DNA of 38,835 nucleotides from Verrucomicrobiota bacterium (lineage in GTDB: Bacteria; Verrucomicrobiota; Verrucomicrobiia; Chthoniobacterales; UBA10450). Shown here piece after piece: positions 6,186-10,761 of this stretch. The notes below the pieces were generated by a model that made no database searches, was not told the origin of the DNA, and saw only the letters and a program-made list of their open reading frames with translations. The stretch lies in contig QHOK01000036.1 of assembly GCA_003218755.1 (NCBI GenBank), forward strand, positions 1 through 38,835, in the 5' to 3' direction. Each line of letters opens with the position of its first letter. The stretch's first letter is position 1. The position numbers and the translations under genes are program-made.

Positions 6186-7664
6186 TTATCGGCAGACAAT
6201 TACTCTCTGCGTCGTGGGCAAATCGATTCCCCTGTCAGCAACTCGGAGTCGTATCCGATGTGAGTGACCATCTTTGAGTGGCGGCGGCGTTTCGAAACGA
6301 AATGCATGGCGGCCGTTTCCATAACCTGCGTCAACGAGGTCCTGCCGGAATTGATTTGCCGAGATGGTGATCAAATATTCTTCGCCATCCCAAAGTTCGA
6401 CTGAAACCGGCGCCTTCGGCTTGTACTTGTCCCAGACCCAGCCAGAAATCTCGTGGCAATCGGCCTGCTCGATTTCAGCGAAATAATGCTGCAGCGGCGG
6501 GGCACCAATGCGCCCGGAAAAAATGAGCAAACCGAAGCAAACGAAATGGAACGTTATGAAAACGGCCAATGCGTTTGAAAGAAATCCATCGCGCCAATAA
6601 TGGCGCGTCTTGTTCCAGTCGGAAAAAATGTGGAAACCTGAGAGCAGCGTCGCCTGATAAAGGCCATAAATGATGTAGTGCGGCTCGATCCCATGCCACA
6701 AACCCATTAATCCGAATGCAAGAAAATATCCGAGGATCGCGGCTGTATTGAGGCTCCTAAACCATTTGCCCCGCGCAGCGGCAAGCAGGAACCGCATGTA
6801 GACGTGATCGCGAAACCAGAACGAAAGTGTGATGTGCCAGCGATTCCAAAAATCACGTATATTTCGCGCGAGGAACGGTTGGTAGAAATTTTCCGGAGTG
6901 TGGATCCCAAAGAGATAACTCAGACTGATAGCAAACGCGCTGTAGCCAGCGAAATCGAAGAACAAATAGAAACTGTAAGCATACATATAACTGAGCAGCG
7001 CACCGAAGCTCCCACTGCGCGCTGCCGGTTCGAGCCAGTGTTGTTTGATGAGCGCTGCGACTATGAACTTGTAAAACAATCCGCGAAAAAAACGGTGCAC
7101 CGCGCCATCGAGATCAGCCAGGAACTCAGCGCGCGTTCGTTTCCTTTTCCAGTCGGTTAGAAAACGCCGATAGCGATCGATCGGGCCAGCAGAAATAGTG
7201 GGGAAGAAAAATAAGAACATCAAGAAATCGGTGGCGCCGGGCGCAGCGATTACCTCGTCTCGAAGGCAAAACACGACATCAAGCGCCCGAAACGTGATGT
7301 AGGAAATGCCCAGAAAACCAAACTGACTTTTGGGCGACACGAGCGGAACCAATTTCGCTGCTGCCAGCGGAAGCAGACTTGCCGCTAGTGCGCTGTAAAA
7401 CAGCCAGCCTGCGCGCGCACCAGCACTGGCAAACGCGCGTACCGTCACCCATTGCCAAACGGCAAAGCCAAGAACGATCCAGATCTCGCGCACTGGAAAA
7501 TGGGCTCGGACATTAAGCAATTCGTGATACTGCACGAGCAGCATCGCCACAGTCACCAGGAGCGCCCACCGCCAACCCGCGCAGCCAAGCAGACCGAGGA
7601 TCAGAGTCGGAACGGCTACATAAAGTAGCAGTATAAAATATGTGAAATCCGCGTAGGGAATCAC
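6186..7664 (-). CDS. dltB: DltB-like MBOAT O-acyltransferase with extra C-terminal domain
   Basis: This polytopic membrane protein (492 residues) has the MBOAT fold. The hallmark segment YLFFDFAGYSAFAIS is present, followed by PENFYQPFLARNIRDFWNRWH (His277) and the catalytic-type His324 in GLMGLWHGIEPHY. In the dlt pathway DltB takes the D-alanyl group from the carrier protein DltC and passes it across the membrane. The frame overlaps dltA by 4 bases (ATGA), so it is probably translated by coupling, last in the operon. Residues about 401-492 are not part of ordinary DltB: they form a beta-rich module with GWVWD, PVSVELWDG, FRQDL and a G-x-G-x-H-x-F motif, then DGHSHRIRLRV. Similar modules occur in polysaccharide-related proteins, from memory. 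The small C-terminal domain may face the periplasm. Confidence 0.9.
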   Translation of the reverse strand: MIPYADFTYFILLLYVAVPTLILGLLGCAGWRWALLVTVAMLLVQYHELLNVRAHFPVREIWIVLGFAVWQWVTVRAFASAGARAGWLFYSALAASLLPLAAAKLVPLVSPKSQFGFLGISYITFRALDVVFCLRDEVIAAPGATDFLMFLFFFPTISAGPIDRYRRFLTDWKRKRTRAEFLADLDGAVHRFFRGLFYKFIVAALIKQHWLEPAARSGSFGALLSYMYAYSFYLFFDFAGYSAFAISLSYLFGIHTPENFYQPFLARNIRDFWNRWHITLSFWFRDHVYMRFLLAAARGKWFRSLNTAAILGYFLAFGLMGLWHGIEPHYIIYGLYQATLLSGFHIFSDWNKTRHYWRDGFLSNALAVFITFHFVCFGLLIFSGRIGAPPLQHYFAEIEQADCHEISGWVWDKYKPKAPVSVELWDGEEYLITISANQFRQDLVDAGYGNGRHAFRFETPPPLKDGHSHRIRLRVADRGIDLPTTQRVIVCR

Positions 7665-9118
7665 AGCGACTTGGCCAGGCTGGCCCGGTCGACCTTGCCA
7701 TTCGGAGTCATCGGAAATGCATCGAGAAAAATAAATTTGCGGGGCAACATGTATGCGGGAAGCCGCTCACTGAGTTGGTTCCGGAGCCGATATGACAAAT
7801 TGAAATGCGATGTCTCATCTCTCGCAGCCAATAGTACAAAAGCAGCAAGTGATTGGGCAGCACCGTCTTTGATCACCGGCAGTACGATCGCATCCCGTAC
7901 AGTCGCCATCGCTCGGAGATTCGCTTCGACATCACCAAGCTCAATCCGATACCCGCTGAGCTTAATTTGGTCGTCGATGCGGCCTTCAAAGAATAGCAGA
8001 TTGTCACGGAAGCGCCCAAGGTCGCCGGTACGATAAGCGCGCTGACCACGATATTGAAAAAAGGCGTCTGCCGTCAGATCCGGTCGGGCAAGATAACCTG
8101 GGCTCACATTCGGCCCTGCAATAATGATTTCACCGCGCTGATTTACTGGTAAGACCTCGCGATTTCCATTTACGATGGCGATTTCGCTCCCCGGCATCGT
8201 GCGTCCGACTGGCAAAGCCGAGTATTGTTTCAGAATCTCAGCATCGACACGTATCGACGTCGTGGCGACCGTTGCCTCGGTCGGGCCATAGGTGTTCCAA
8301 ACTTCAGCCCGTGGAAATCGCTTCAACAGCAGGCCGGCGGTCTGCGGTGTGAGTGTTTCGCCGCAAAATAGAAAGCGACGCACGCGCGGCAGCATCGTCT
8401 CGGAAAATTTCTCTTCGACAAGGCACATCTGCGCAAATGACGGCGTTGAAACCCACGTCGTCACGCCGGAACTCGTAAGTGCGCGATAAAGCTCTTTTGG
8501 ATTTGCGATAAGATCGCGGCTGATGCTGAAGAGCGTGCCTCCCGTTGCGAGGCCGCAATACAAATCCATTACAGAGAGATCAAACGAGAAGGGCGCCTGA
8601 TTCAAAAACACTTCGCCGAATTCGGTGAATCGGTGCTCCGCGAGCATCCATGTGACGAAATGCTCGAGGCAAGCCAGGGTTATTATGACGCCCTTGGGCT
8701 CACCAGTGCTGCCGCTTGTGAAAAGGACGTAAAACGGCCCGTCACCCTGCAGGCCTCTGGAAGGACAACGCATCTGAGACTCAGGTAATTGCCGAACGTC
8801 TTCCGGAGTCAGCACCAACGCCGCGCCCGAAGTTGCCAAAATTTTGTCGATGCGCTGCTGCGGCAACGCGGTGTCGAGCGGCACATAAGGGCGGCAGGAT
8901 TTCACCGCGCCGAGAAATGCGATTAACATTTCGGGCTCGCGATGCCCGAGCACCGCAATTGGGCTGCGATCATCGCCGAAGCGCTCTGTCAGATAGGAAG
9001 CGAGTGCATCCGAGCGCCTGCGCAGTTGACCATATGTCAAGGTTTTGCGGTCGCTAATATGTGCAGTTGCTTCCGGGGCCACTGCGCCCCAGCGATCGAT
9101 TCGTTCGATCAAATCCAT
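7661..9118 (-). CDS. dltA: D-alanine--carrier protein ligase-like adenylation enzyme
   Basis: This 485-residue adenylate-forming enzyme would activate an amino acid as aminoacyl-AMP and load it onto the DltC phosphopantetheine. Core motifs are in order: FTSGSTGEPKG (about 133-143), FCGETL (251-256), NTYGPTEATVA (275-285), YRTGDLGRF (362-370), GRIDDQIKLSGYRIEL (379-394) and the catalytic Lys475 of NGK. Cys252 in FCGE aligns with the cysteine associated with D-alanine preference in Bacillus DltA (from memory of that literature). Length and sequence fit DltA rather than a multidomain peptide synthetase module. The ATG at 9118 follows directly on the stop of the microprotein gene (TGAATG) and the 3' end overlaps dltB by 4 bases, so it sits in one polycistron. 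Confidence 0.9.
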   Translation of the reverse strand: MDLIERIDRWGAVAPEATAHISDRKTLTYGQLRRRSDALASYLTERFGDDRSPIAVLGHREPEMLIAFLGAVKSCRPYVPLDTALPQQRIDKILATSGAALVLTPEDVRQLPESQMRCPSRGLQGDGPFYVLFTSGSTGEPKGVIITLACLEHFVTWMLAEHRFTEFGEVFLNQAPFSFDLSVMDLYCGLATGGTLFSISRDLIANPKELYRALTSSGVTTWVSTPSFAQMCLVEEKFSETMLPRVRRFLFCGETLTPQTAGLLLKRFPRAEVWNTYGPTEATVATTSIRVDAEILKQYSALPVGRTMPGSEIAIVNGNREVLPVNQRGEIIIAGPNVSPGYLARPDLTADAFFQYRGQRAYRTGDLGRFRDNLLFFEGRIDDQIKLSGYRIELGDVEANLRAMATVRDAIVLPVIKDGAAQSLAAFVLLAARDETSHFNLSYRLRNQLSERLPAYMLPRKFIFLDAFPMTPNGKVDRASLAKSL

Positions 9119-9256
9119 TCAGAAACCCTGATAAACAAACGGCTGCGTAGAGAAATCGCCACGGCCATACATCAGGATCAACGCTACGATGATGGCGAAA
9201 TAATAGAGAATCAGCAGTACGCGATGCACCGCCGGATGTTTCTCGAGCCAGCTCAC
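9119..9256 (-). CDS. dltX: DltX-like membrane microprotein (45 residues)
   Basis: Reading the minus strand from GTG 9256 gives a 45-residue protein with an N-terminal amphipathic start (MSWLEKHPAVHRVL), one membrane helix (LILYYFAIIVALILMYG) and the C-terminal tail PFVYQGF. Single-span proteins of this size ending in F-x-Y-x-x-F are the DltX family (teichoic acid D-alanine biosynthesis, formerly DUF3687), in which the C-terminal motif is needed for D-alanylation. The GTG start overlaps the stop of the carrier protein gene (GTGA), and its TGA abuts the ATG of dltA. This position between dltC and dltA, with tight coupling on both sides, supports it as a real gene. It is easy to miss because it is under 50 codons and starts with GTG. 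Confidence 0.88.
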   Translation of the reverse strand: MSWLEKHPAVHRVLLILYYFAIIVALILMYGRGDFSTQPFVYQGF

Positions 9257-9504
9257 AAGTGCAGTCGGTGCTGGAGATCAGCGATAATTTTCCGCGGTGT
9301 TCGCCAGCTTTCGCGCTCAAATTCCGCCGGAGAAACTTTGATGCCGAATTCCTCTTCGATCATTAGGATGAGCTGAACGGTTCTCATGGAATCGAGAACC
9401 TGATACTCGTAAAGCGGCAGATCGAGATTGTTCAACACCTCGTCGGTTTCGGCAACCGAAGCGAGAAGTTGCAATACTTTGTCCGAGAAATCTGCAGCTA
9501 TCAT
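9253..9504 (-). CDS. dltC: DltC-like acyl/peptidyl carrier protein
   Basis: The protein is 83 residues, acidic and helical, the size of a stand-alone carrier protein. The phosphopantetheine attachment serine is Ser39 in VLDSMRTVQL; LDSM followed by a Val/Gln-rich helix is the DltC form, whereas fatty-acid ACPs usually have DSLD. It would hold the activated amino acid for transfer to the DltB tunnel. It overlaps the microprotein gene by 4 bases (GTGA) and lies 57 bases downstream of the dltD-like gene, on the same transcript. Confidence 0.9.
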   Translation of the reverse strand: MIAADFSDKVLQLLASVAETDEVLNNLDLPLYEYQVLDSMRTVQLILMIEEEFGIKVSPAEFERESWRTPRKIIADLQHRLHL

Positions 9505-9561: not shown

Positions 9562-10761
9562 TCAGCTTCGTGGCATACGCCCGTGAAAGAAATCGTCAAG
9601 GGCGCGATCGTAATACGCCCAGCCTTTTGCAGTGAGATGACTTTGGTGACGGATAAGAAAAGCCGGGTCTTCGTCATGCTCCTCAAATTCGACTACCGCA
9701 AAATGGTATCGTTGCACGAGTGCGCGAAGCTTTGTGTAATACTCTTCGCGAGCCGACCGCGAAACGCCGGCGTGATCATAAAAATCCCCGGCAATCGGCA
9801 TGCTGAGAATTAGTGGCCGCGCGTGAACTCTTTCAAGTGTGCGCAAGAGCAATTCCAAATCGGCCCAACTCGCGGACGCTTTCACGCCGTTGCGAAATGC
9901 CACGTCACGAGAACCTGGGGTGATTTGCACGTTCAGGCCCGAGGCTTTTGAGACCTTGGCCCAATCGGTGGTTTTGGTTGCTTCTACCCTTGCAATGAGC
10001 TTGGGCCAATCGAGTACTTCTGGATGCCGCTGCGGGGCAGGTTTGATCTCACGCCGAATGTGATTGAGCGCCGCTCTATGATCTTGTAGCTCCAGTAAGG
10101 CAGTCTGCGCTTTTCCGAGTGGCCAGAGGACGCAGAAGATCGTGCGATCGACCAAACGCCCAGAAGCCAGCCGCCTCAGCGCGAATTCAAGCAGGGGACT
10201 TTTTTCAAGAGTGCTCGGACATTCCAGCATCCGCGAAGCAATGTCTCGCTTTAGCTCGAAATCTAGGGCGGTTCCGAAGGCCATTTCGCTTGCTGCCATT
10301 AGCGAAAAATTTCCCGTGTAGCCTCGCCAACCCGGCTTGGCCGCAAAAAACCAGCCGGGCGAAAGCGAGATCGCAAGTTCTTTGCCGCGCAAGTCGGAGC
10401 TGAGTGCGGCAACTTTTTGCGACATGATCAGCGGGGTCGTACCTCCGCCGCCAACGGGCGAAAGTTGAAAACCTGTTGGCGCGGTCCGAAAAAAAATGTT
10501 CCCCCTCTCCGGAGCCGCAGGGACTAGCAATTCCGAACTGCCATAAATCGGCAATACATTCGGCGCATGCGCAGCGGCACGTTGAAAGGCCACTCCCTGA
10601 TTTTTTAGGAGAAATAGATCGGGGGCGGTTGAGGGAATGGTGGAACGTTCGAGATGAATCACAGCCATTCCAGCAGCGAACAAAATGGTCCCCGCCACGC
10701 CAAGCGCGATCAGGCCTGCAAACAAATGGGGCATCTCTTTGTTGGCGTGGACGCGCGCCAT
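9562..10761 (-). CDS. dltD: DltD-like SGNH-fold protein
   Basis: The 399-residue protein has an N-terminal membrane anchor (about 11-36) and then a periplasmic domain. IYGSSELLV (Ser75/Ser76) fits the serine block of DltD. The C-terminus carries LSMPIAGDFYDHAG and finally HQSHLTAKGWAYYDRALDDF, the conserved HL-x-x-KGW end of the family. DltD acts with DltB in the last step of transfer to the acceptor polymer. At the Asp position of the usual D-x-x-H pair there is His372 (H-x-x-H with His375), which is unusual if the alignment is right. As first gene of the operon it is read away from pgi, with a shared 167-bp divergent region. Confidence 0.85.
   Translation of the reverse strand: MARVHANKEMPHLFAGLIALGVAGTILFAAGMAVIHLERSTIPSTAPDLFLLKNQGVAFQRAAAHAPNVLPIYGSSELLVPAAPERGNIFFRTAPTGFQLSPVGGGGTTPLIMSQKVAALSSDLRGKELAISLSPGWFFAAKPGWRGYTGNFSLMAASEMAFGTALDFELKRDIASRMLECPSTLEKSPLLEFALRRLASGRLVDRTIFCVLWPLGKAQTALLELQDHRAALNHIRREIKPAPQRHPEVLDWPKLIARVEATKTTDWAKVSKASGLNVQITPGSRDVAFRNGVKASASWADLELLLRTLERVHARPLILSMPIAGDFYDHAGVSRSAREEYYTKLRALVQRYHFAVVEFEEHDEDPAFLIRHQSHLTAKGWAYYDRALDDFFHGRMPRS

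Follow-up and report, generated by a model that had tools for sequence, protein, structure and literature searches.

We report what is, at a probability of roughly 93%, a verrucomicrobial dltX gene from a diderm host, set in a compact and complete dlt operon, with a product that works by the DltX acyl relay. The window, the whole 38,835-nucleotide stretch of contig QHOK01000036.1 that was analyzed, carries the operon in the order dltD-dltC-dltX-dltA-dltB on the minus strand. The dltX frame (9119..9256, minus strand) lies between dltC and dltA, has 45 codons, and starts with GTG. Its product, (V/M)SWLEKHPAVHRVLLILYYFAIIVALILMYGRGDFSTQPFVYQGF, is a predicted 45-residue, single-pass membrane microprotein that ends in PFVYQGF; the only hydrophobic helix has VLLILYYFAIIVALILMYG as its best 19-residue window (mean hydropathy 2.6). 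A sequence-only reading of this DNA had described the frame with its coordinates, strand, and start, along with one membrane helix and the PFVYQGF end, and translation and hydropathy bear the description out. The dltC stop and the dltX start overlap by 4 nt (GTGA, 9253..9256, minus strand), and the dltX stop (TGA) directly abuts the ATG of dltA. Since inspection revealed no clear Shine-Dalgarno sequence or ribosome-binding site upstream of the GTG, coupling to dltC suggests itself as the likely mode of dltX translation.

In Pfam-A, the frame matches PF12459 (DltX) at 33.1 bits (cut-off 25; E = 4e-8), with residues 6-45 aligned to positions 4-43 of a 43-position profile; NCBIfam returned no model for it. 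Beside this score, other features typical of the family are present: about 50 residues with one helix, the tail, and a location within a dlt operon. Judged on these features, the frame is a genuine, family-typical DltX, a known kind of protein. A search for a solved DltX structure found none; 7ue2 (RPB_PLP3_R6), a structure match, was set aside because its name does not read as DltX.

Across 14 members of the genus, the dltX alignment is ungapped; the start codon is GTG in 13 and ATG in the remaining one; and, among the 45 codons, 24, 13, and 40 columns vary at the first, second, and third positions, respectively. Pooled dN/dS comes to 0.18 in this frame and exceeds 1 in each of the remaining forward frames. 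The sequence-only reading was to be given up if the peptide proved not conserved or free of coding constraint; both conservation and constraint were found, and its view that the frame is a DltX within a complete dlt operon gains support from a curated profile and from synteny, conservation, and purifying selection.

All 4 partner proteins, DltA, DltB, DltC, and DltD, are encoded beside dltX, with DltB and DltC above NCBI equivalog cut-offs, DltA above that of a subfamily model, and DltD above that of Pfam. The dltC gene (9253..9504, minus strand) specifies an 83-residue D-alanyl carrier protein with a DSM phosphopantetheine motif (NF003464, 88.3 bits, cut-off 68; TIGR01688, 80.3 bits, cut-off 52.35), whose Asp-Ser is invariant across all aligned DltC. 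The 485-residue D-alanine–carrier protein ligase encoded by dltA (7661..9118, minus strand) scores 566.4 bits against NF003417 (cut-off 476) and 546.4 bits against TIGR01734, slightly below the cut-off of 559.85. The dltA stop overlaps the dltB start by 4 nt (7661..7664, minus strand). The MBOAT D-alanyltransferase DltB (6186..7664, minus strand; 492 residues) reaches 421 bits against TIGR04091 (cut-off 375), resembles the solved DltB structures 6bug and 8jem in sequence (E about 1e-65) and as a predicted model (Foldseek E 6e-21; mean pLDDT 78.8), and keeps both histidines of the active-site region, H277 and H324. It has no F-x-Y-x-x-F tail. At its C-terminus, DltB bears an extension of about 100 residues (6186-6500, minus strand; consensus GWVWDK...ANQFRQDL.DAGYGNG), which AlphaFold2 predicts to be a beta-sandwich (mean pLDDT 91.6). 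The extension has no match in Pfam and only weak Ig/FN3-like matches, and it is common to many but not all relatives, among which it varies.

The dltD gene (9562..10761, minus strand) encodes a 399-residue SGNH-type D-alanyl transfer protein (PF04914, 138.5 bits) that scores 134.7 bits against TIGR04092, under the NCBI equivalog cut-off of 150. Its Ser-His-Asp triad is incomplete in the window's genus: in an alignment of 138 DltD, the serine (GSSEL) and histidine are kept and the aspartate of DxxH is replaced. At about residues 368-385, the window's DltD reads FLIRHQSHLT in place of the aspartate-bearing DxxH that Bacillota keep. A tandem second dltD occurs in several genus members (L056, L057, L060, and L074). 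Because the DxxH aspartate is missing, the final transfer step may differ here, or some relatives may rely on a second DltD instead.

The dlt genes are nearly restricted to one order of Verrucomicrobiota. In a phylum-wide sample of 388 genomes, true DltB occurs in 1, the window's own, and the window's own DltX alone exceeds the cut-off; the sole other DltX match in that scan (L002) has no dlt genes and was rejected. Taken alone, the phylum-wide DltX scan would mislead, and an order-level scan was needed. Of 213 Chthoniobacterales genomes, a strong DltB is found in 53 (51 of them over the cut-off) and a DltX match at E up to 1e-3 in 39. The profile search of verrucomicrobial dlt loci that the sequence-only reading had proposed shows order-wide conservation: 49 of the 53 dltB-bearing genomes have DltX in the equivalent position, a count that includes sub-threshold DltX found by reading the loci, and in the remaining 4 (G409, G390, G408, and G444) the operon is truncated by the end of a contig. 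DltB is likewise present in 37 of the 39 genomes with a DltX match; as for the other 2, the contig of G458 is cut after dltA, and the match in G572 is a false positive in a locus with no dlt genes (L193). Fusions of DltX to DltD or DltC, suspected from long open frames in L191 and L192, were dismissed because the reading frames differ.

Gene order varies around this conserved set: most of these order genomes have D-C-X-A-B, Chloroflexota and Desulfosporosinus have C-D-X-A-B, and Bacilli have X-A-B-C-D. At 2 loci (L079 and L103), dltA is absent and dltX directly precedes dltB; hence, dltX tracks dltB, dltC, and dltD and not dltA alone. In a metagenome-assembled genome of an Isosphaeraceae planctomycete, dltA-dltB-dltC stands at the start of one contig (L116), and dltD-dltX lies close to where a second contig ends (L201); the two are probably one operon split by assembly.

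The sequence-only reading had also asked whether the tyrosine and terminal phenylalanine are conserved; Y42 and F45 are both invariant across 19 diverse members from Bacillota, Chloroflexota, a planctomycete, and Verrucomicrobiota. A tyrosine of the helix is conserved as strongly as the tail. In a separate collection of tails, the last residue is Tyr in 1 of 13 copies outside Bacillota and Verrucomicrobiota; this collection was gathered with a pattern that requires the tyrosine, and its invariance counts are partly circular. An independent check comes from the order loci retrieved by the Pfam profile (L077-L105), where 29/29 carry the tail pattern. The tails of Verrucomicrobiota, Chloroflexota, and Planctomycetota have YGxGxFxTPxF(V/I)YQ(G/E)F in common. 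The tail in cis is found on 0/46 true DltB versus 29/31 other MBOATs of the phylum. The latter, non-Dlt proteins (L004-L032) nearly all have F(I/L)Y..F at the C-terminus, which is the same acyl-shuttle tail in its cis form. At the level of sequence, the complementarity of cis and trans tails speaks independently for the acyl-shuttle model.

In Gram-positive bacteria, as reported in PMC12148441, DltB takes D-alanine from DltC and places it on the DltX tail tyrosine, from which it reaches a serine of DltD; the mechanism of DltX is further treated in PMC5541007 and PMC11035591. PatA of Gram-negative bacteria performs the same acyl-tyrosine chemistry with its tail in cis, and the shuttle is already known there in this form (PMC12148441). 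By analogy with this work on DltX and PatA, from which we take the relay, the N-in/C-out orientation, and the D-alanine cargo, DltA would load D-alanine onto DltC, and inner-membrane DltB would transfer it to the tyrosine of the DltX F-x-Y-x-x-F tail on the periplasmic side. The DltX tyrosine would then hand D-alanine to the DltD serine, and DltD would esterify an envelope polymer. DltX would in this way act in trans as the tail of DltB, a part that other MBOATs bear at their own C-terminus. The sequence evidence fits the published relay, and DltX very probably moves D-alanine across the membrane for envelope decoration.

Two other accounts of the peptide carry little weight. An untranslated dltC-dltA stretch could resemble DltX by accident: the frame has just 45 codons, a GTG start, and no obvious Shine-Dalgarno sequence. 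Conservation and codon constraint refute this idea, whose probability is close to nil: a Pfam E-value of 4e-8 and a dN/dS of 0.18 stand against it, and so does a reading frame preserved in dozens of genomes. Furthermore, of the window's 751 stop-to-stop frames with 30 aa or more, dltX alone ends in F-x-Y-x-x-F, where 0.017 such ends are expected by chance per shuffled window. DltX might also be a structural or assembly helper that joins DltB and DltD, its tyrosine never acylated. Gram-positive DltX does bind both proteins (PMC12148441), PMC11035591 leaves a regulatory function open, and the helix tyrosine is conserved equally to the tail. Even so, we regard a pure helper role as improbable, given that Tyr42 and the terminal Phe45 are invariant across phyla, that PatA is acylated within the same hexapeptide (PMC12148441), and that this hexapeptide is absent from DltB and present in other MBOATs.

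The suggestion that the DltX mechanism crosses or predates the Gram-positive/negative divide stands in its first part, with DltX in Verrucomicrobiota, Planctomycetota, and Chloroflexota; the second part is not supported, with dlt patchy and the DltB tree unrooted. Lateral spread accounts for the distribution at least as well as a pre-divide origin, and we favor it because of the placement of DltB in the tree and the patchy distribution (true DltB in 1/388 genomes phylum-wide and in 51/213 of the order). It is fairly probable that the verrucomicrobial operon, dltX included, was acquired from donors resembling Chloroflexota or Bacillota, or by way of such donors: most verrucomicrobial DltB sequences group with those of Chloroflexota and a planctomycete, away from Bacillota; these groups have the tail motif in common; and IS-flanked dlt operons on enterobacterial plasmids imply that such operons do move laterally. 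Against this, the unrooted tree does not resolve the direction of transfer, and some verrucomicrobial sequences branch outside the main clade. A phylum scan centered on the genome of L120, which is titled “Proteobacteria”, found DltX in 9/301. This genome is of uncertain phylum and its operon resembles those of Chloroflexota, and we base no claim about Proteobacteria on it.

The plasmid operons, common to Klebsiella electrica and Enterobacter cloacae, have the IS-flanked order dltD-[40 aa]-dltB-dltA-dltC. The 40-aa frame between dltD and dltB (NZ_CP041250.1, locus L217:5590-5712; NZ_CP071862.1, locus L218:3590-3712) encodes WP_255423173.1, an annotated “hypothetical protein” with one hydrophobic helix and the end FEYQKF. 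The sequence-only reading held that automatic annotation probably misses the window's frame; on these plasmids annotation does call the analogous frame, under that uninformative name. The plasmid protein goes unmatched in Pfam, and the E. coli genome collection contains nothing close to it; the window's DltX peptide, for its part, has no match in the plasmid collection. Because a profile comparison with the DltX family aligned the tail alone (probability 2.8%), we call WP_255423173.1 a likely analogue of DltX by position and tail, and not a member of the family. We see an even chance that a trans F-x-Y-x-x-F microprotein is an obligatory and largely overlooked fifth dlt component of diderms generally, proteobacterial ones with proteins beyond the reach of Pfam, such as WP_255423173.1, included, and that it serves D-alanylation of a non-teichoic polymer of the outer membrane or periplasm.

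The window belongs to the order Chthoniobacterales of Verrucomicrobiota, and its genus is most likely Candidatus Udaeobacter, as indicated by named relatives, among them Candidatus Udaeobacter sp. AEW3, at 73% identity in DltB, and the culturable Chthoniobacter flavus Ellin428, whose dlt operon likewise includes DltX (L109). LpxC is encoded in the genome from which the window comes, which marks the organism as a lipid A-type diderm; a TagF-type (PF04464) glycerophosphotransferase was not detected in this assembly, which is 87% complete. Given these 2 results, teichoic acid cannot be assumed as the acceptor. A complete Gram-positive-type D-alanylation relay, down to its smallest part, appears to be maintained by selection in soil diderms that have not been cultured, and a question open to testing follows: what does the verrucomicrobial dlt system D-alanylate? 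For annotators, the lesson is to seek a tiny frame ending in F-x-Y-x-x-F wherever DltB comes without a tail. Our literature search found no paper connecting DltX with Verrucomicrobiota; its coverage was incomplete, so we claim no priority.

Among known systems, the closest parallel is the DltX of Bacillus, Staphylococcus, and Streptococcus (PF12459, formerly DUF3687). It has the same build, with about 45-55 residues, one helix with a conserved YY/FY, and an F-x-Y-x-x-F end; its gene also lies immediately before dltA, and its partners are DltB and DltD. The differences lie in the operon (X-A-B-C-D there, D-C-X-A-B here), in the tail ((F/Y)IYN(D/E)F there, F(V/I)YQ(G/E)F here), and in the host, which is here a diderm. 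PatA-PatB of peptidoglycan O-acetylation and other MBOAT-SGNH pairs use the same hexapeptide and pass an acyl-tyrosine to the SGNH partner (PMC12148441); in PatA-PatB, however, the MBOAT itself carries the tail, in cis, and acetyl-CoA is the donor with no carrier protein. Dickeya dadantii offers D-alanylation-type genes in a diderm, dltBAC with dltD/pbpG, tied to polymyxin resistance (PMC3544676); that paper lists dltBAC and dltD and reports no DltX, whereas the operon described here includes one.
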